Source: Clostridiales bacterium (GTDB lineage: Bacteria; Bacillota; Clostridia; Saccharofermentanales; Saccharofermentanaceae). Taken from it: a stretch of 64,000 nucleotides of DNA. The position numbers were made by a program, and so were the translations under genes. The stretch lies in the NCBI GenBank assembly GCA_017480325.1, contig JAFVAY010000011.1, forward strand, positions 124,001 through 188,000. Direction: 5' to 3'. Below the pieces are notes generated by a model. It did not search any database. It had not been told where the DNA came from and was given only the letters and a program-made list of their open reading frames with translations. Every line of letters starts with the position of its first letter. Within the stretch, counting starts at the first letter, position 1. Shown in pieces: positions 24,945-32,413 of the stretch.

Positions 24945-25394
24945 ATGGAAAGACTTAATCTTACAGGGATGATTTATTTGGTATGCTCCGTTTTGATGGT
25001 GATTTGTAACTTCCTGCCGATAATGGTGTTGAAGACTGTATTAAACGGCGAAGCTGACGCTACCTATGCGGCGATGATGCCTACCTTAAGCGGGTATGTC
25101 GGACTGATCGCTGCAGGTGCCTGTGTGGCAGTTCCTTTTCTCGGGCTTAAGAACAAGACTGCTCTCGTTGCGACTGTAGCCTCAATTACAAGCGGCATAT
25201 TCCTCGCTCGAAGGATATCCGGTCTCAAGTCCCTCGCATCTGCCGGAATAGGCCTTACCAACATCATGAACTCTCTGTCTTCAAGCAACGCCGCCTCTAT
25301 GACCGTTGACTACTCCTTCGGATTTTACCTTTATATCCTGGCTATCATCCTGGTGGTCGTAAGCGGCTTCGTCTACACCATGAGTGAAGACTAA
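24945..25394 (+). CDS. Small membrane protein, four helices
   Basis: A 149-residue protein with four hydrophobic helices (about 8-30, 43-62, 68-88, 122-143) and short loops. No family recognised. ATG at 24945 has a good AGGGGAG. Its 3' end overlaps the GTG start of the sigma-WYL gene by 11 bases, so it is probably the first gene of that operon. It could be a membrane sensor or immunity-like partner, or an unrelated gene by chance upstream. Confidence 0.7.
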   Translation: MERLNLTGMIYLVCSVLMVICNFLPIMVLKTVLNGEADATYAAMMPTLSGYVGLIAAGACVAVPFLGLKNKTALVATVASITSGIFLARRISGLKSLASAGIGLTNIMNSLSSSNAASMTVDYSFGFYLYILAIILVVVSGFVYTMSED

Positions 25395-26916
25395 AGTTAA
25401 TATGAACGCCAAGGATTTCCTGCCTGATTCTGAAGTAAATGAGCTTATAAGAAGATTCAAGTCCGATAGGGACAGCGATGCTTTGGAAACACTGTGTGAG
25501 AACTACGACAGATTCGTTCACTGGTGCGCGAGAAAGAAGCTTGCGAGGATCGTGTCCTTAACGCCAAAGCAGCGAATGGATATGGAGCCCGATCTGTTCC
25601 AGGCAGGCTGGCAGGGGTTTATTGAGGCTGTCCCGAATTTTGACGAGACTTCCGGCGGTAAATTTTCTACCTACGTCAGGAAATATATTGACGGACAGAT
25701 GAGCAAGGAACTCGATGTACTTTTGAATAGGGCAGGAGTGACGGATAAACCGAAGCCGAAGGTCGGGAAAGCGAAGGCTTCTAAAGTAGCTTCAGACAAG
25801 GCAGATGACATCGTTTCTTCCAAGAGACGGCCGCTTCAGCTCGCGGATGTTCTGAAGCTGTTCTCTGACGAGAATCACAGTATTACCAAGACAGAACTTC
25901 GGGATAATCTTCATAAATACAGGCTGATAAAATACGGTGAGGACTCAAAGCTTGAGACGCCTCTTACGATATCCGATACTCTTGATGCGGTGCTACAGGA
26001 GCGCGAGATCAAGGCGAAGGTCAATGAGGGCAAGGGAAAGAAAGCCCCGGAGATTACTGACCTTCAGTATGTACACCTGTTCTCTAACGAGCAGCTCGAT
26101 GAGCTTATCCAGATGATCTGCTTTACGGAATTGCTTGCGCAGGAAGAGAAGGAGGAACTTATAAGAAAGCTTCTTTCTACTGCGAGCCTTTATTATGAGA
26201 CTCCGTTCTGGGACGGGCTGAAGCTGAAGTTCAATCCGTCTGCGGTCTATGGGCGCTATAGCGGTAAGACTTCTTCTTCTCGAAAAGATTTTTCTTCAAA
26301 CATCAAGACCATACAAAAAGCGATAGACAGTGCGGCACAGATAAGCTTCCTGTTCAATCGTTATAACTCAAATCACGAGTTGGAGCCTTCCAGAAACACT
26401 ATACATAAAATGAGCCCGTACAGGATAGTGGTCTATCATGATAATTTCTACTGCATAGGACTTTGGGAAGGGGCGAAGAATTACAGTCATTATCGTATTG
26501 ATCTTATGTCTGAAGTAAAGATTGAATATGATGAAGAAGGCAGGACGGTTCCTATCAGGCTTTCAAACTTCGAGGGTATTCCGATATGTAATGCCACATG
26601 GGATCCTGCGAAATATATGGCTGAGCATCTGAATATGGCTTATGAGACGCCGACTTCAAAGCCACGGGATATCCTGATAAAGATAAAGGACACTGATTAC
26701 ACGATTTTACATGACTGGTTTGGTAATCATTACGAGAAGACTTCGCTCTCGAAGGACCCGGGGTACGACATAGTCCGCGTTAAGACTTCTCCGTCAATGC
26801 TCGTCCACTGGGCAATGCAGTACGGTACGAGAGTTGAGATATTGGATAAGAGAATCCGTGAGAGCATTCGCAAGGAAATCGAGGCTTTGGAGGAGATGTA
26901 TGGGGATAATAGGTAG
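25384..26916 (+). CDS. Fusion of sigma-70 region 2 with a WYL sensor domain
   Basis: A 510-residue protein of unusual build. Residues ~30-120 look like sigma-70 region 2 (ALETLCENYDRFVHWCARKK, DLFQAGWQGFIEAV, NFDETSGGKFSTYVRKYIDG). A Lys-rich linker (~120-150) leads to a possible winged-helix segment (~152-215, with LADVLKLFSDENHSITKTEL). The C-terminal half (~320-505) is a WYL-type ligand-binding domain (MSPYRIVVYHDNFYCIGLWE, YRIDLMSEVKI, then the C-terminal extension with MLVHWAMQYGTRVEIL). No sigma region 4 is seen. WYL proteins often control DNA-damage or phage-defence genes. Start GTG 25384 or ATG 25402; neither has a strong ribosome binding site. Confidence 0.75.
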   Translation: MKTKVNMNAKDFLPDSEVNELIRRFKSDRDSDALETLCENYDRFVHWCARKKLARIVSLTPKQRMDMEPDLFQAGWQGFIEAVPNFDETSGGKFSTYVRKYIDGQMSKELDVLLNRAGVTDKPKPKVGKAKASKVASDKADDIVSSKRRPLQLADVLKLFSDENHSITKTELRDNLHKYRLIKYGEDSKLETPLTISDTLDAVLQEREIKAKVNEGKGKKAPEITDLQYVHLFSNEQLDELIQMICFTELLAQEEKEELIRKLLSTASLYYETPFWDGLKLKFNPSAVYGRYSGKTSSSRKDFSSNIKTIQKAIDSAAQISFLFNRYNSNHELEPSRNTIHKMSPYRIVVYHDNFYCIGLWEGAKNYSHYRIDLMSEVKIEYDEEGRTVPIRLSNFEGIPICNATWDPAKYMAEHLNMAYETPTSKPRDILIKIKDTDYTILHDWFGNHYEKTSLSKDPGYDIVRVKTSPSMLVHWAMQYGTRVEILDKRIRESIRKEIEALEEMYGDNR

Positions 26917-27646
26917 ACAGACATTTGACGACTTATTAGATAAGTTTTGCGAAAGTAAGAATCCGGATATAATTGATAGTCAACCCAGAACAACAGGATG
27001 TGATGTCGAGGCTTGTTATTTGTGTCAGGCAATTTGGTACAAAGTGACCGGAAATACACTTAATAATGGCAAACCATATTCGAATAATTATTTTGATTGG
27101 AATAATGGGAAGATAGAGAAAACAGTCAGATTTCATTTGGATATTATGAATAATCCAAAGATTGGAAGTTGCGGACTCGCCGCCTCAGTAAATGAAACAG
27201 GGAGAAATAATTGGGAAACGGTTTATCACCATATCGGGAATATGACACCAATTCCATGGTTCGATGTTGCAGGCAATCACAGTGTTAACGGACAGATGCT
27301 TCATAAAGCTCTGGATGAGCGTTGGGATTTGTATCTCAATGTTCTTAGAAGGAATTGGGATGCATGGAATAAGACGGAGGGATTCACATTTAATGGTTAT
27401 ATGATACTGACATGTCAACAGATGTATTATGCCGATATATATGAAAGTATAGAGGATACAAGTGAAATCACATTAGATAGCATTGCTGAATGGAACGGGA
27501 GAATTATAGAGAACCCCGAGATGGATTTGTTATCATTCGAACCTTACGATGGGCGCACGATTGATACTGTTGCAGATGATATTATTAAGCTTATAAAAAT
27601 AAGAGATAGAGTCATCGGACTTAAACTGGACGCATCAAGACAGTGA
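26900..27646 (+). CDS. Unknown protein coupled to the sigma-WYL gene
   Basis: A 248-residue soluble protein, function unknown. It starts at ATG 26900 behind GGAGGAG and overlaps the sigma-WYL gene by 17 bases, so the two are translated together. Notable segments: two Cys in CDVEACYLCQAIWYK, YHHIGNMTPIPWFDVAGNHS near the middle, DERWDLYLNVLRRNWDAWNK and ILTCQQMYYADIYES. It may belong to a DUF with a conserved HIGN-PIP motif (DUF6994-like), but I cannot confirm this. The conserved His, Asn and acidic residues could form a catalytic site; that is only a guess. It is AT-richer than the sigma-WYL gene. Confidence 0.75.
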   Translation: MGIIGRQTFDDLLDKFCESKNPDIIDSQPRTTGCDVEACYLCQAIWYKVTGNTLNNGKPYSNNYFDWNNGKIEKTVRFHLDIMNNPKIGSCGLAASVNETGRNNWETVYHHIGNMTPIPWFDVAGNHSVNGQMLHKALDERWDLYLNVLRRNWDAWNKTEGFTFNGYMILTCQQMYYADIYESIEDTSEITLDSIAEWNGRIIENPEMDLLSFEPYDGRTIDTVADDIIKLIKIRDRVIGLKLDASRQ

Positions 27647-27663
27647 TTTTGACATTTACAGAG

Positions 27664-27730
27664 AAGTATATAGAAGTATATAATCAAATTAAAAGTATAT
27701 AAAAGTATATAGACAAATGAATAGTATATA
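27664..27730. repeat. GTATATA iteron array upstream of the second AAA+ ATPase
   Basis: GTATATA starts at 27666, 27676, 27695, 27705 and 27724: spacings 10, 19, 10, 19. The higher-order unit is 29 bases; units 27664-27692 and 27693-27721 match at 25 of 29 positions, and a third partial unit runs into the AGGAGG ribosome binding site of 27745. It is probably the operator for that gene. Confidence 0.88.
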
Positions 27731-27744
27731 GGAGGTTTTGTCGC

Positions 27745-28788
27745 ATGGATAAGAATCCTTTTGCAATTAATTTTGGTAGAGTCCCTGTGCAGTATATCAG
27801 CAGGGATATCCTCATAGATGAGATAGTAGAGGAATTAAAAAACGATGATGTGCAGAATCAGTGTTTTATGCTTACTGGCACAAGAGGAACTGGAAAAACT
27901 GTCACGATGACAAGTATAGAAAAGAGAATAGAAAGTGACAATCAGTGGATAATAATCAGGCTCAATCCGACGCGTGATATGTTGTCCGGACTTGTAGGTA
28001 AGCTGTATGACAGCCGTGAATTTATTACGAAATTTATTGACAAAAGTATAAATCTGTCAAAATTCGGCATAGGAATTGGGTTAGAATCAAAATCTCCGGT
28101 AGCGGATATCGAATCGGCATTGGAAATTATTCTTAAGGAGATTAAGAGAAAGAAGAAGCGCCTTCTTGTTACTGTTGATGAAGTCTCCAATACCGATTAT
28201 ATGAGGGAGTTTGCTAGTAGCTTTCAGATAATGATAAGAGAGGAGATGCCTATATATCTTGTCATGGCTGGCTTATATGAGAATATTCATAATTTGGAAG
28301 ATGAAGAGAACTTAACTTTTTTATACAGAGCTCCTAAGTACGAGATGGAGCCGCTTAATCTTACTCTTGTAGGTGAAAGGTATCGAAGAGTTTTTAATAT
28401 TGATAGGGATGCAGCCAAGAAGATGGCTATGATTACTAAAGGATATCCATTTGCATACCAAGCTCTTGGAAAGTATTTATGGGAAGATAAAGATCATTCT
28501 ATAAATGATGATGTGCTTGCCAAGTTTGATGAAGCCCTTAGCCGCTATGTGTATAAAAAGATTTGGTCTGAGTTATCTCCTAAAGATCAATGGTATATGA
28601 GTTATATAGTGAAGAAGCAAATAATGACTACAGCCGAGTTGCTGGAGTTGACCGGTTCAAAAAAGAACGAGTTCTCTCAGTATAGAGCGAGATTGAGGGA
28701 TAAAGGTCTGATAAATGTAACTACACGAGGAGTAATTAGGTTTACATTACCGAGATTTGATGTCTTTCTTGACAATGAGATGTTATAG
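27745..28788 (+). CDS. AAA+ ATPase (archaeal-type, ORC/AAA_16-like)
   Basis: A 347-residue P-loop ATPase. Walker A TGTRGTGKT (44-52), Walker B RLLVTVDEVSN (~138-148), then a sensor region (PIYLVMAGLYENIH), a helical lid with KMAMITKGYPFAYQALGKYL, and a C-terminal winged-helix (ELLELTGSKKNEFSQYRARL) that could bind DNA. ATG at 27745 has a perfect AGGAGG. It is strongly AT-rich compared with its neighbours. The GTATATA array lies immediately upstream, fitting a protein that binds its own promoter. The cellular role is unknown; relatives lie with prophage, toxin-antitoxin and defence genes. Confidence 0.85.
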   Translation: MDKNPFAINFGRVPVQYISRDILIDEIVEELKNDDVQNQCFMLTGTRGTGKTVTMTSIEKRIESDNQWIIIRLNPTRDMLSGLVGKLYDSREFITKFIDKSINLSKFGIGIGLESKSPVADIESALEIILKEIKRKKKRLLVTVDEVSNTDYMREFASSFQIMIREEMPIYLVMAGLYENIHNLEDEENLTFLYRAPKYEMEPLNLTLVGERYRRVFNIDRDAAKKMAMITKGYPFAYQALGKYLWEDKDHSINDDVLAKFDEALSRYVYKKIWSELSPKDQWYMSYIVKKQIMTTAELLELTGSKKNEFSQYRARLRDKGLINVTTRGVIRFTLPRFDVFLDNEML

Positions 28789-28810
28789 GTCTTTAGAAAA
28801 CTAAGACCTA
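28786..28810 (+). terminator. Weak stem-loop at the ATPase stop codon
   Basis: TAGGTCTTTAG / CTAAGACCTA with an AAAA loop and one bulged base; the stop codon is in the stem. The following T-run is poor, so the terminator role is uncertain. Confidence 0.4.
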
Positions 28811-28857
28811 TACTTCCATAATATTGTTGAATAAACTTTCGCAAGGGGGCAAAGAAC

Positions 28858-29358
28858 ATGATCGAGAAGATTGAGAAAGTATATATCGATATGGATGGTG
28901 TACTTGTAGATTTTGAAGGCGGCGTGGAGAAGTTGCTCGGGATTGTGCCTCCCGGAGGAAAGCGTCCTGAAGAAGAGGACCGCCTGATGTGGAAACGCAT
29001 GAAGACTTACGAGCACTTCTACGACAGGCTTGAGCCAATGCCGGGAGCGATTGATATGTTTAACAGGCTTTATGAGAGGTTCGGTGACAATCTTGAGGTG
29101 CTTACGGGTATTCCCAAGCCGGAGCGAGGCATACTGACGGCGGCAGAGGATAAGACAAACTGGGTACACCGTGTTCTATCAAAAGAAATAAAGGTAAATC
29201 CGGTAAGAAGACGCGACAAGTATCTTTTCTGCAAAGGGAAGGAATACATCCTTATCGATGATCTTAAAGATAACATAGAGGCGTGGGAGAAAGCGGGAGG
29301 AACCGGCATTCTTCACATAAGCCCTGACGACACAATGAAGAAGATATTTGGTCTTTAA
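28858..29358 (+). CDS. HAD-superfamily 5'-nucleotidase-like phosphatase
   Basis: Phosphatase of the cytosolic 5'(3')-deoxyribonucleotidase class. The 166-residue protein has HAD motif I YIDMDGVLVDF (Asp11, Asp13), motif II in EVLTGIPKP, a Lys in the KEYILIDD region and motif IV IDDLKDNIEAWEKAGG. Family members remove phosphate from nucleoside monophosphates, but the substrate cannot be decided here. ATG at 28858 lies behind AAGGGGG. A terminator follows at 29393. Confidence 0.82.
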   Translation: MIEKIEKVYIDMDGVLVDFEGGVEKLLGIVPPGGKRPEEEDRLMWKRMKTYEHFYDRLEPMPGAIDMFNRLYERFGDNLEVLTGIPKPERGILTAAEDKTNWVHRVLSKEIKVNPVRRRDKYLFCKGKEYILIDDLKDNIEAWEKAGGTGILHISPDDTMKKIFGL

Positions 29359-29392
29359 CTTTTCAAAGACCTCAAAACCCATAATGAATATG

Positions 29393-29452: not shown

Positions 29453-30235
29453 ATGAAGAACATGATGAAAACCTACTTAGGCAAAGACTACAGCGACAAT
29501 CACCTTAGGAATTTCTGCCTATACTGGCTTAAAGGAATGTCCTGCAAGCCGGCGTGGGAAGATGACAGCAAAGGAAGGCGCGCCGTGTATGATACTTGGC
29601 GTAAAGATAACGACCTCGACTGCCTGTACTTTGACGGCGATCTCAAGGCGGACACGCTCATGAGCGCTTGGACGATAATCAAGTGGGTGGCTGAGTTTAT
29701 CAACAGAGAAGAAGGCAGAAAGTTCACCAAATGTGAAGCGGACCTTAAGCTGTTGGCAGATGTCCCTGATACTTACCTGCCGCCGGAATATGAGCTGGTA
29801 CAGCTTCTGTACAAGTTCCTCGAGCTCGCGGAGCTTCCGTGCAACTACATCCTGCTTCCTGACAGGAACATGAACGCTGACAGATACTGCTTCAGAAGAA
29901 GCGCCAAATTCAGGATGCTCTACGATCAGGTTCCTGCAACCTTGTGGCATGTCTTTGAGAAGGAGACGCTGGGGATGTATTTCCTTGATGCAACCGGTGA
30001 AGTCGATGAGGAGAAAGTGGTAGCATGGATCTTGCGCGAAAAACTCGAAATGGGCTTCAGGAAAGGAGTCATCAAGCAGAGCGAGGTAATACCGCTTACA
30101 AAAACAATAAGTCCGCGATCAGGAAAAAGGCTTAATAAGGAAGACGAGCTCACGGAGGCACTAAAGTACATGATCAGCTTTCTCAGTGAAAGAGGCGAAA
30201 AATTGACTACCGGTCCGATGCTAACGGGGATATGA
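29453..30235 (+). CDS. Hypothetical protein (260 aa)
   Basis: Not recognised. Soluble, mixed-charge protein with aromatic-rich N-terminus (NFCLYWLKGMSC, DLDCLYFDGDLKADTLMSAW), a helical middle (YELVQLLYKFLELAELPCNY) and a basic C-terminus. ATG at 29453 follows a clear GGAGG, and the reading frame has the neighbours' codon use, so it is a real gene. It is first in a run of same-strand genes of unknown function (29453-32413), which may form a loose accessory operon. Confidence 0.7.
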   Translation: MKNMMKTYLGKDYSDNHLRNFCLYWLKGMSCKPAWEDDSKGRRAVYDTWRKDNDLDCLYFDGDLKADTLMSAWTIIKWVAEFINREEGRKFTKCEADLKLLADVPDTYLPPEYELVQLLYKFLELAELPCNYILLPDRNMNADRYCFRRSAKFRMLYDQVPATLWHVFEKETLGMYFLDATGEVDEEKVVAWILREKLEMGFRKGVIKQSEVIPLTKTISPRSGKRLNKEDELTEALKYMISFLSERGEKLTTGPMLTGI

Positions 30236-30269: not shown

Positions 30270-30689
30270 ATGAAAGTACTGATAATACCGGATGTGCATC
30301 TGAAGCCGGAGATATTTGATTGGGCTATTGACGATGTTCTTTTCTCTCTTGCCGGACTTACAAAAGAGTTCGTAGAATTCTATATGAATGAGTTAAGAGA
30401 TGATGTTAATGCAATGATTAAGGCAGTCAACTGTTTCGGAGATGATGTTCTCTGGGATGAGACAAGTCCGATATGGGCAAGATCTCAGGATGGGTACAGA
30501 ATAGGAAATGTTTATCCGCCGGATTTGATGCAGGTAGTAGGACATACGCCGATGAGACGAATAGAGCAGGAAGGAAACCTTCTGACGACAGACGTTTTCT
30601 CTACTTGGTCAGACGGTAGAAGCTACGGTGAAGAGAGACTCTGCTGGGTAGATACGGTCACGAGAAAGTGGGGGTATTGTAACGGATGA
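30270..30689 (+). CDS. Internally deleted metallophosphoesterase
   Basis: A 139-residue relic. It begins as a calcineurin-type phosphoesterase (MKVLIIPDVHLKPEIFDWA, with the metal-binding D-x-H) and ends as one (VVGHTPM, then TTDVFSTWSDGRS), but intact relatives have about 90 more residues between these, including the GNHD metal motif. The join falls near residue 20. The FSHAG motif near the join has become FSLAG, losing another metal ligand. The open reading frame is intact and has a ribosome binding site (AGGGGG), so it may be expressed, but it should lack activity. Confidence 0.75.
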   Translation: MKVLIIPDVHLKPEIFDWAIDDVLFSLAGLTKEFVEFYMNELRDDVNAMIKAVNCFGDDVLWDETSPIWARSQDGYRIGNVYPPDLMQVVGHTPMRRIEQEGNLLTTDVFSTWSDGRSYGEERLCWVDTVTRKWGYCNG

Positions 30690-30716
30690 TAAAGGCTATG
30701 ACGGAGGTGCAGGAAG

Positions 30717-31382
30717 ATGTGTAAAAAAGTGTATTCGGGCTTTACATACGAGTTGTCGAAGGTAATTGATACAGGCGGTGCAGACAGTAAACTCAGGGCA
30801 TACGTTCTTGAGACAGGCGGGTGGGATGATCCTACCCGCTTTGTTAATCTTGGCAGAAGAAGATACATTCACGTCCGAGGGAATTGTTATCTGGTGTTCG
30901 TGTCGGAAGACGAGATTAAGATAACAGAGTTGAAATTCGACGATTCGAGGCTATATAAAGGGCATCCGGTAATCACGATTACAGATGTGCTGAAAGGTAT
31001 GGGAATAAAGTGCAAGATTATAGCTGATTATGAAAGCGGAACCCGGGCGCACGGCGCAGCGTGGAAGCGCGCACTTAATGAAAGACAGGCGATTTTCGCG
31101 CAGAGCGGGTATGCCCTTCAGAAGAGGTTCTGGTGTGACTGCTGGGAAGTAAATTTTGATATGGTCTTAGTAAAGCACAACTGGTTTTTGCTGGATGGCG
31201 CAGAGGTGAGAAACATCGGAGTGGACCTGGTGTTAGACGATATTATGAACGCGACTCATATTTATATCGAAAGGATATTATCCGAACCGATATCAATAAG
31301 TCGGGACGAGGCTGTAAAGCTTCTGAAACTAAAGGGAATAGAAGAAAGTACAATTTACGATTTGGTAGGGAAAGGCAGGTAA
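30717..31382 (+). CDS. Hypothetical protein (221 aa)
   Basis: Not recognised. Soluble protein with several Cys and Trp (GNCYLVFVSEDEIKITELKF, LQKRFWCDCWEVNFDMVLV) and a C-terminal helix-hairpin segment (ISRDEAVKLLKLKGIEESTI) that could be a small DNA- or protein-binding element. The ATG at 30717 follows AGGTGCAGGAAG. It lies 27 bases after the broken phosphoesterase and five bases before the next gene, so it is operonic. Confidence 0.65.
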   Translation: MCKKVYSGFTYELSKVIDTGGADSKLRAYVLETGGWDDPTRFVNLGRRRYIHVRGNCYLVFVSEDEIKITELKFDDSRLYKGHPVITITDVLKGMGIKCKIIADYESGTRAHGAAWKRALNERQAIFAQSGYALQKRFWCDCWEVNFDMVLVKHNWFLLDGAEVRNIGVDLVLDDIMNATHIYIERILSEPISISRDEAVKLLKLKGIEESTIYDLVGKGR

Positions 31383-31387
31383 TTAAA

Positions 31388-32413
31388 ATGAAGAACAGAA
31401 TAGATAAAAGACCTGAAAATCTTTGGTCAGACGACATCTGGGAGTTATACTGCTTTCTGCAGGACTGGAAAGAGGATACAAAGTATATCTTCTGGACAGA
31501 CAGGCGTAGCCGTAGACCCGGAATCAAGGAGCATCTGTATCTGATAAAAGATATCGAATTGAATATAGGTGAAGTCAGCTACTATGCGGACAGCACTGAT
31601 GTTGAGATACCCATGAAAGATGAGGAATTAATAATCCATCTTGAGCATAACGATAGAGGAAATATACAGTCCTCACAGGCGTATGTATTGCTCGATGGGA
31701 TGTATAAAGTTGACGGCGGTGTAGAAGAACTCTTAGCCAGAACCCACTTAAGGCTTCCCGTTAAGTCAGATATTGATGAGGCAAAGTATGATGAGTATGG
31801 TGTGCCTGTTTATAATCACGAGGAACCTGTTCCGTATATAAAGCCTACGCCTCAGCAGTTTGCGATAAGCTCATTTGAGGGTTTCCTTAAGTATTCGGGT
31901 ATCACATATTCCGAAGATTCGGAAGGGGAAGTAAAGAGTGTAACTTTTGAGTATGATTCGACAGATGATGCCCCCGGGGTTGTTATTAAGGGCAAGGCTG
32001 TATTCGGAAAGAAGATTAAGCTTCGCTTCTTCTATGGCGAAAAGGCATCTCATGTCTTAAGAAGTGAGAATAAGAAAGATCTTATCAAACTGATTAACTA
32101 TATCAATTCACGGGTCGATCTGGGACTTGCTCGCATTTATATGGAAGATGGCGATGAGCCTGATATAGTAATTGCTTCCGATGTTCCTTACGACCTTACC
32201 CATCATGGCGGAATTGCTCTTACTACTGCCGAGCTGATTACGGAAAGCAGTGTTAAGCTTCTTAAGGAACTCGCTTATCCTATTTTCGAGTTTATGCATG
32301 GCAGTATGAGTTATAAAGAAGTGCGCGAGTACATCGAGAGTGATATCCTTAAAGGTAACCACAATGCGATGATTCTTGAGTGGATAGACGACTTTAATAA
32401 AAAGCTGCGGTAA
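31388..32413 (+). CDS. Hypothetical protein, possible YbjN-like C-terminal domain
   Basis: A 341-residue soluble protein. The N-terminal third is acidic with WELYCFLQDWKEDTKYIFW. From about residue 210 the pattern NYINSRVDLGLARIYMEDGD, then IVIASDVPYDLTHHGG and SVKLLKELAYPIFEFM, resembles YbjN-type sensory/chaperone-like domains, but the match is by eye and weak. It starts five bases after the previous stop. The downstream secreted-protein gene starts 32 bases later. Confidence 0.65.
   Translation: MKNRIDKRPENLWSDDIWELYCFLQDWKEDTKYIFWTDRRSRRPGIKEHLYLIKDIELNIGEVSYYADSTDVEIPMKDEELIIHLEHNDRGNIQSSQAYVLLDGMYKVDGGVEELLARTHLRLPVKSDIDEAKYDEYGVPVYNHEEPVPYIKPTPQQFAISSFEGFLKYSGITYSEDSEGEVKSVTFEYDSTDDAPGVVIKGKAVFGKKIKLRFFYGEKASHVLRSENKKDLIKLINYINSRVDLGLARIYMEDGDEPDIVIASDVPYDLTHHGGIALTTAELITESSVKLLKELAYPIFEFMHGSMSYKEVREYIESDILKGNHNAMILEWIDDFNKKLR

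Follow-up and report, generated by a model that had tools for sequence, protein, structure and literature searches.

The window analysed here is a stretch of 64,000 nucleotides from the genome of a Clostridiales bacterium of the family Saccharofermentanaceae. The first-pass annotation had reported in it an open reading frame of 510 residues at 25384-26916, which is confirmed; the probable start is the ATG at 25402 rather than the GTG at 25384. This gene, called here the sigma-WYL gene, and the parts of its product are as follows.

25384..26916, plus strand: sigma-WYL gene, encoding 510 aa in the order sigma region 2, winged helix-turn-helix (wHTH), WYL, WCX (GTG at 25384, stop at 26916)
25426..25728, plus strand: sigma-70 region 1.2/2 domain, residues 15-115 (seen by Pfam, by comparing a family profile with PDB and by superposing the AlphaFold2 model)
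25825..26001, plus strand: winged helix, residues 148-206 (profile-profile alignment with plain WYL regulators)
25960-25995, plus strand: predicted recognition helix, residues 193-204 (variation at residue 194 follows that of the dyad described below)
26302..26523, plus strand: WYL domain, residues 307-380 (Pfam; R371 is kept, while L374 takes the place of the second ssDNA arginine)
26605..26907, plus strand: WCX extension, residues ~408-508 (fold match to PafBC and DriD)

A block resembling sigma region 2 had been proposed at about residues 30-120, and Pfam, profile matches to solved sigma factors and the AlphaFold2 fold now place it at residues 15-115. In the window protein, Pfam Sigma70_r2 covers residues 70-108 (E 1.4e-5, over the curated cut-off) and a phage sigma family profile covers residues 7-110 (E 1.1e-19). 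When an N-terminal profile of 20 relatives was compared with solved structures, it matched SigA (E 3.7e-14), SigF (1.5e-13) and SigK (2.2e-13), with matches spanning regions 1.2-2.4. The AlphaFold2 model was built from 9 aligned sequences and has a mean pLDDT of 66, reaching ~80 at residues 15-115 and lying between 70 and 90 for most of residues 300-510; its residues 15-115 superpose on region 2 of sigma-B (Z 14.2, 1.3 Å over 92 residues), which bears out the fold that the first-pass annotation had suggested checking. Among phage proteins, a Herelleviridae sigma factor of 343 aa (record MN043730.1, 119233-119493, L113) is 35% identical, in its N-terminal part, to region 2 of the window protein. 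As had been noticed at first reading, region 4 is missing: Pfam gave no region 3/4 match, either in the window protein when E values up to 10 were admitted or in any of the 20 family members at E 0.001.

The remainder of the protein has the layout of a WYL regulator, that is wHTH, then WYL, then WCX. A profile-profile comparison aligns plain wHTH-WYL-WCX regulators from within the genus with residues 148-508 from one end to the other (E 1.2e-36), and it puts the winged helix, previously estimated at ~152-215, at residues 148-206; AlphaFold2 confidence is low there in both runs, the model of the relative L038 being no better than that of the window protein. What had been read as one WYL-type domain at ~320-505 consists of a WYL domain at residues 307-380 (Pfam E 1.8e-6, over the curated cut-off) and a WCX extension at 408-508, and the PADLOC WYL profile covers residues 303-501 (E 3.3e-16). 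Compared by sequence with solved structures, the 364-residue C-terminal part alone gave nothing meaningful, whereas the fold search with the C-terminal half of the model did find matches, the best being PafBC and DriD, with WYL repressors of the BrxR/CapW type also matched. In the same genus, proteins of ~740-770 aa at L017, L018, L022, L024 and L025 carry, by eye, wHTH and WYL followed by a leucine-rich-repeat-like part.

The same build is found in 19 relatives, 33-50% identical to the window protein, in two bacterial families: 13 genes spread over 12 genomes in the family to which the window belongs, one of these genomes having two, and 6 genes in Lachnospiraceae metagenome-assembled genomes. 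Two further genomes, G052 and G070, contain C-terminal pieces only, at contig ends. A search of 391 class-wide genomes gave no full-length match beyond the window's own genus, the remaining matches being plain WYL proteins, mostly of ~330-370 residues. The window genome itself encodes WYL domains in three genes and region 2 in six, and both domains meet in the window gene only. Pfam WYL was detected in all 20 members; Sigma70_r2 was detected in 12 of the 20 when members were scanned singly. Judged by its conservation across 20 proteins, the fusion of sigma region 2 and WYL is not a product of chance. Viral contigs contained no relative of the full-length protein, and plasmid and phage records yielded plain WYL regulators or phage sigma factors only; no mobile-element origin is therefore claimed.

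The conserved residues of region 2 are informative when numbered by their E. coli sigma-70 equivalents (D403, L404, G408, T429, Y430, W433, W434 and Q437). D403 (as D/E), L404, G408, T429 and Y430 (as Y/F) are kept in 20/20 members, and the acidic, glycine, threonine and tyrosine/phenylalanine positions among them are those for core binding and -10 melting. The W433/W434 wedge is not retained, as is also the case in many alternative sigma factors. Q437 of sigma-70 reads position -12, and no member has a glutamine at the equivalent position. In the WYL domain, the first arginine of the expected pair is present in 20/20 members and the second is replaced by leucine in 20/20 (R-x-D-L), whereas plain WYL regulators of the genus have R-x-D-R as their consensus. 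The corresponding arginines of PafBC (PafB R211/R214, an equivalence drawn from spacing) bind single-stranded DNA (PMC11804915). The uniform loss of the second one suggests that the ligand may differ from that of PafBC, and the sigma-WYL family may respond to something other than ssDNA.

Downstream of the sigma-WYL gene lies a gene array with two putative promoters.

26900..27646, plus strand: gene that overlaps the stop codon of sigma-WYL (match to DUF6994 weak, under the cut-off)
28788..28808, plus strand: dyad of promoter 1, GGTCTTTAGAAAACTAAGACC (composite-motif search)
28816..28822, plus strand: -10 element of promoter 1, CCATAAT, ~35 nt 5' of the gene start at 28858
28858..29358, plus strand: predicted target, NT5C/HAD 5'-deoxyribonucleotidase-like (Pfam E 1e-6, PHROG 8.1e-32)
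29350..29371, plus strand: dyad of promoter 2, GGTCTTTAACTTTTCAAAGACC (half-sites identical to promoter 1)
29379..29385, plus strand: -10 element of promoter 2, CCATAAT, ~67 nt 5' of the gene start at 29453
29453..30235, plus strand: predicted target, array protein C1 (restricted to genomes with the sigma-WYL gene)
30270..32413, plus strand: remainder of the predicted target operon (homologues recur in the arrays of other carriers)
30270-30689, plus strand: shortened metallophosphoesterase of this operon, 139 aa against ~232 in relatives
30717-31382 and 31388-32413, plus strand: two further genes of this operon

In the intergenic regions of the arrays, the composite motif runs from a dyad through 7-11 bp to CTCCATAATAT and then to GTGAAA near +1, and its -10 element is T-CCATA[A/T]T. 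It precedes array genes downstream of sigma-WYL regulators in many carriers. With CATAAT taken as -12 to -7, the centre of the dyad falls near -31, 18.5 bp upstream of CCATAAT (17.5 in L049-L051). The symmetry of the dyad amounts to 189 complementary pairs against 108 +/- 5.7 expected from 2,000 shuffles, and compensatory changes are present. The -10 element is the constant part: positions -12 to -9 read CATA in 35/35 sites. A TTGACA-like -35 element is rarer than chance (1.76 of 6 positions matched against 2.56 expected). A profile of 23 sites, searched against 22 loci, gave ~30 matches at E < 0.01; nearly all lie on the coding strand, 5' of array genes, and they include the held-out loci L040, L044, L045, L046 and L052 as well as additional sites in L047 and L048. 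Both window sites (28788-28822 and 29350-29385) have the half-site GGTCTTT/A; they are the only two clear sites of the window genome, and each is weaker by profile than the sites of relatives.

The arrays that follow these sites vary in order and content between genomes. Their recurrent families include NinI/ApaH-like and other metallophosphoesterases, an NT5C-like nucleotidase and an HD protein, and a function in nucleotide or nucleic-acid turnover is possible. Several other recurrent families have no match, among them C1 (29453-30235), which with its homologues (A5) found none in Pfam, NCBIfam or solved structures. The metallophosphoesterase at 30270-30689 is without its central part and is possibly inactive in the window genome. 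About five copies of (A)AGTATATA lie at 27663-27735, 5' of an ATPase gene (27745-28788) that is not preceded by the composite motif; they are possibly the site of another regulator. A stretch that recurs between array genes of L046, L047 and L048 combines an inverted repeat (GGTTGCTTCCGAGTA ... TACTCGGAAGGCAACC) with a hairpin resembling a terminator, and it may encode a small hydrophobic peptide.

The motif and the gene occur together. With a sequence-only motif model at a threshold of E <= 1e-3, 13 of 14 carriers among 113 genomes of the family had the motif, against 1 of 99 non-carriers (p 5e-15); here G052 and G070 were scored as carriers from their C-terminal fragments, and the carrier G031, missing from the match list, was taken as outside the sample because its sites match the 23-site profile strongly. 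Among carriers that played no part in model building the figures were 5/6 against 1/99 (p 4e-7). C1 is present in 11 of the 113 genomes, all of them carriers. In G039, the motif also stands 5' of a second array, which is distant and made up of the same gene families (L108, G039:C22, 3788-5712), where the 7.5 kb that were read contain no sigma-WYL gene; this array is likely a trans target of the sigma-WYL protein. No exact copy of the motif was found in viral contigs. By eye, no shared motif was seen 5' of the sigma-WYL gene itself, which would fit control by a ligand better than control by synthesis.

Which part of the protein would read which part of the promoter is suggested by variation between genomes, since the dyad changes from one genome to another and the -10 element stays the same. 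Residue 194, in the first part of the predicted recognition helix, is arginine or lysine in 6/6 proteins whose dyad, counted from the centre, has G as its sixth base, and is basic in none of the 13 whose dyad lacks it. It is the sole column of 510 with this pattern, and the tree requires at least two changes. The column was picked after the fact, so this covariation is a suggestive link between wHTH and dyad and not a clean test. An alternative reading takes the motif for a site of recombination or cassette insertion belonging to the array, independent of the regulator. Such a site would suit the variable order and content of the arrays and the recurrence of the motif between genes; it would hardly explain a constant orientation, a constant spacing to CATAAT, the nearness of start codons, a dyad whose sequence is peculiar to each genome and changes together with a wHTH residue, or the frequent sharing of one motif by several genes, and we give this reading almost no credence.

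A second possibility, raised in part by the first-pass annotation as a decoy using the polymerase-binding surface, is that the protein inhibits transcription, its region 2 filling the polymerase clamp as a decoy or anti-sigma factor, or its dyad-bound dimer blocking promoters as a repressor. BrxR and CapW, which were matched by fold, are WYL-protein repressors that bind dyads. At the sites described here, however, the dyad has no underlying -35 element to block, the motif is positioned and spaced as a promoter 5' of array genes, and the residues for -10 melting are conserved. With the motif so placed upstream of the island genes and no sign of inhibition, the decoy is disfavoured, and inhibition in any of these forms seems very unlikely. 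The 'sigma-like factor' of the same annotation is well supported, given the conserved fusion, the key region 2 residues and a dedicated promoter class whose -10 element appears not to be that of sigma-A.

A more serious rival is a plain WYL activator of the sigma-A holoenzyme, for which the dyad would be an operator, CATAAT a weak sigma-A -10 element and region 2 a tether or relic. The C-terminal 360 residues are homologous to regulators of the DriD/PafBC type. DriD binds a dyad overlapping the -35 element and works with the sigma-A-type housekeeping holoenzyme at promoters whose -10 and -35 elements are poor (PMC12340889), and sigma adaptation is the mode of PafBC (PMC11804915). The sigma-WYL dyad likewise sits over the -35 position at a fixed distance from the -10 element, as DriD-like operators do; the geometry alone is thus no proof of a sigma role, since a plain WYL activator shares it. 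Sigma-A could also in principle use CATAAT, five of whose six positions match the sigma-A -10 element. The C at -12, present in 35/35 sites, nevertheless sets these promoters apart from the genome's own sigma-A sites: exact TTGACA-N16-18-TATAAT occurs 14 times against 0 in the reversed control, and the same pattern with CATAAT in place of TATAAT occurs 2 times against 2. Given this preference for TATAAT, it is unlikely that sigma-A sets the constant C at -12. (Over the whole of genome G000, 13 of the 14 exact TTGACA-N16-18-TATAAT matches lie on the contig minus strand.) In addition, two region 2 domains would contend for a single clamp site, the melting and core-binding residues would be unneeded in a relic, and the composite motif was not found 5' of 14 plain WYL genes. 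On balance we regard the sigma-A activator as unlikely, though by no means negligible.

A conserved region 2-WYL build with a matching set of promoters looks rather like a switchable sigma factor, and the conserved build, the region 2 fold, the promoter class, the gene co-occurrence and the link between wHTH and dyad are each supported by sequence. We propose that a WYL-family activator acquired its own sigma region 2. Its product would bind, as a dimer, to the dyad at about -31 through the winged helices, which would stand in for region 4 of a sigma factor and for the -35 element. Region 2, fused to the WYL regulator, would dock onto the RNA polymerase clamp and would read and melt T-CCATA[A/T]T. 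Initiation at composite promoters, which we infer to be independent of sigma-A, would then drive the conserved array genes downstream. Going by the presence of the WYL domain, the WYL/WCX half would act as the switch, making activity conditional on a ligand, with gating and its direction, like dimerisation and core binding, being inferred. That the protein is a sigma-like initiator derived in this way, with a dyad-binding dimer in place of region 4, region 2 on CCATAAT and a WYL/WCX switch, is in our judgement probable. The fuller claim, that by gaining region 2 a WYL activator turned into a ligand-gated sigma factor contained in a single protein, with a promoter class of its own and a gene array dedicated to it, we regard as evenly balanced.

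Several known systems resemble parts of this proposal. DriD of Caulobacter and PafBC of mycobacteria share the wHTH-WYL-WCX build of the C-terminal part, and DriD also the dyad over the -35 position; neither has a sigma region, and both use the housekeeping sigma factor, whereas the window protein has a fused region 2 and a -10 element of CCATA[A/T]T. The WYL arginines differ too, the R-x-D-R pair of DriD/PafBC-type activators being R-x-D-L in the sigma-WYL family. Sigma-70 factors of the SigF/SigG/SigK/SigA type have the region 1.2-2.4 domain in common with this family, but possess regions 3 and 4, of which the family has neither. T4 gp55 is a sigma factor based on region 2 alone, which reads a -10-type element only and leaves the role of region 4 to another protein (PMC2988020). 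The sigma-WYL family is like gp55 in having region 2 only and, at its putative target promoters, no -35 element; it is the sliding clamp and gp33 that activate gp55, whereas a DNA-binding dimer and a WYL sensor are proposed here. MzaA, of the MZA defence system, also contains sigma region 2 within a larger non-standard protein, but it is far longer than the window protein and its very weak match is confined to part of region 2. The open-access full-text literature searched contained no protein with both sigma region 2 and WYL, in line with the earlier remark that no described regulator has this exact build, an absence that is in itself no proof of novelty. A survey of 15,079 WYL proteins mentions no sigma region in its account of architectures with at least 100 members (PMC6789036).

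If the proposal is correct, it would reveal a direct evolutionary route from activator to sigma factor. To our knowledge, known WYL activators recruit the housekeeping sigma factor, known sigma factors either possess region 4 or rely on a separate partner, and a sigma factor that has its own WYL sensor would be without precedent. The promoter rule, a species-specific dyad with a constant CCATAAT, makes the hypothesis directly testable and points to the uncharacterised gene array that accompanies the regulator.
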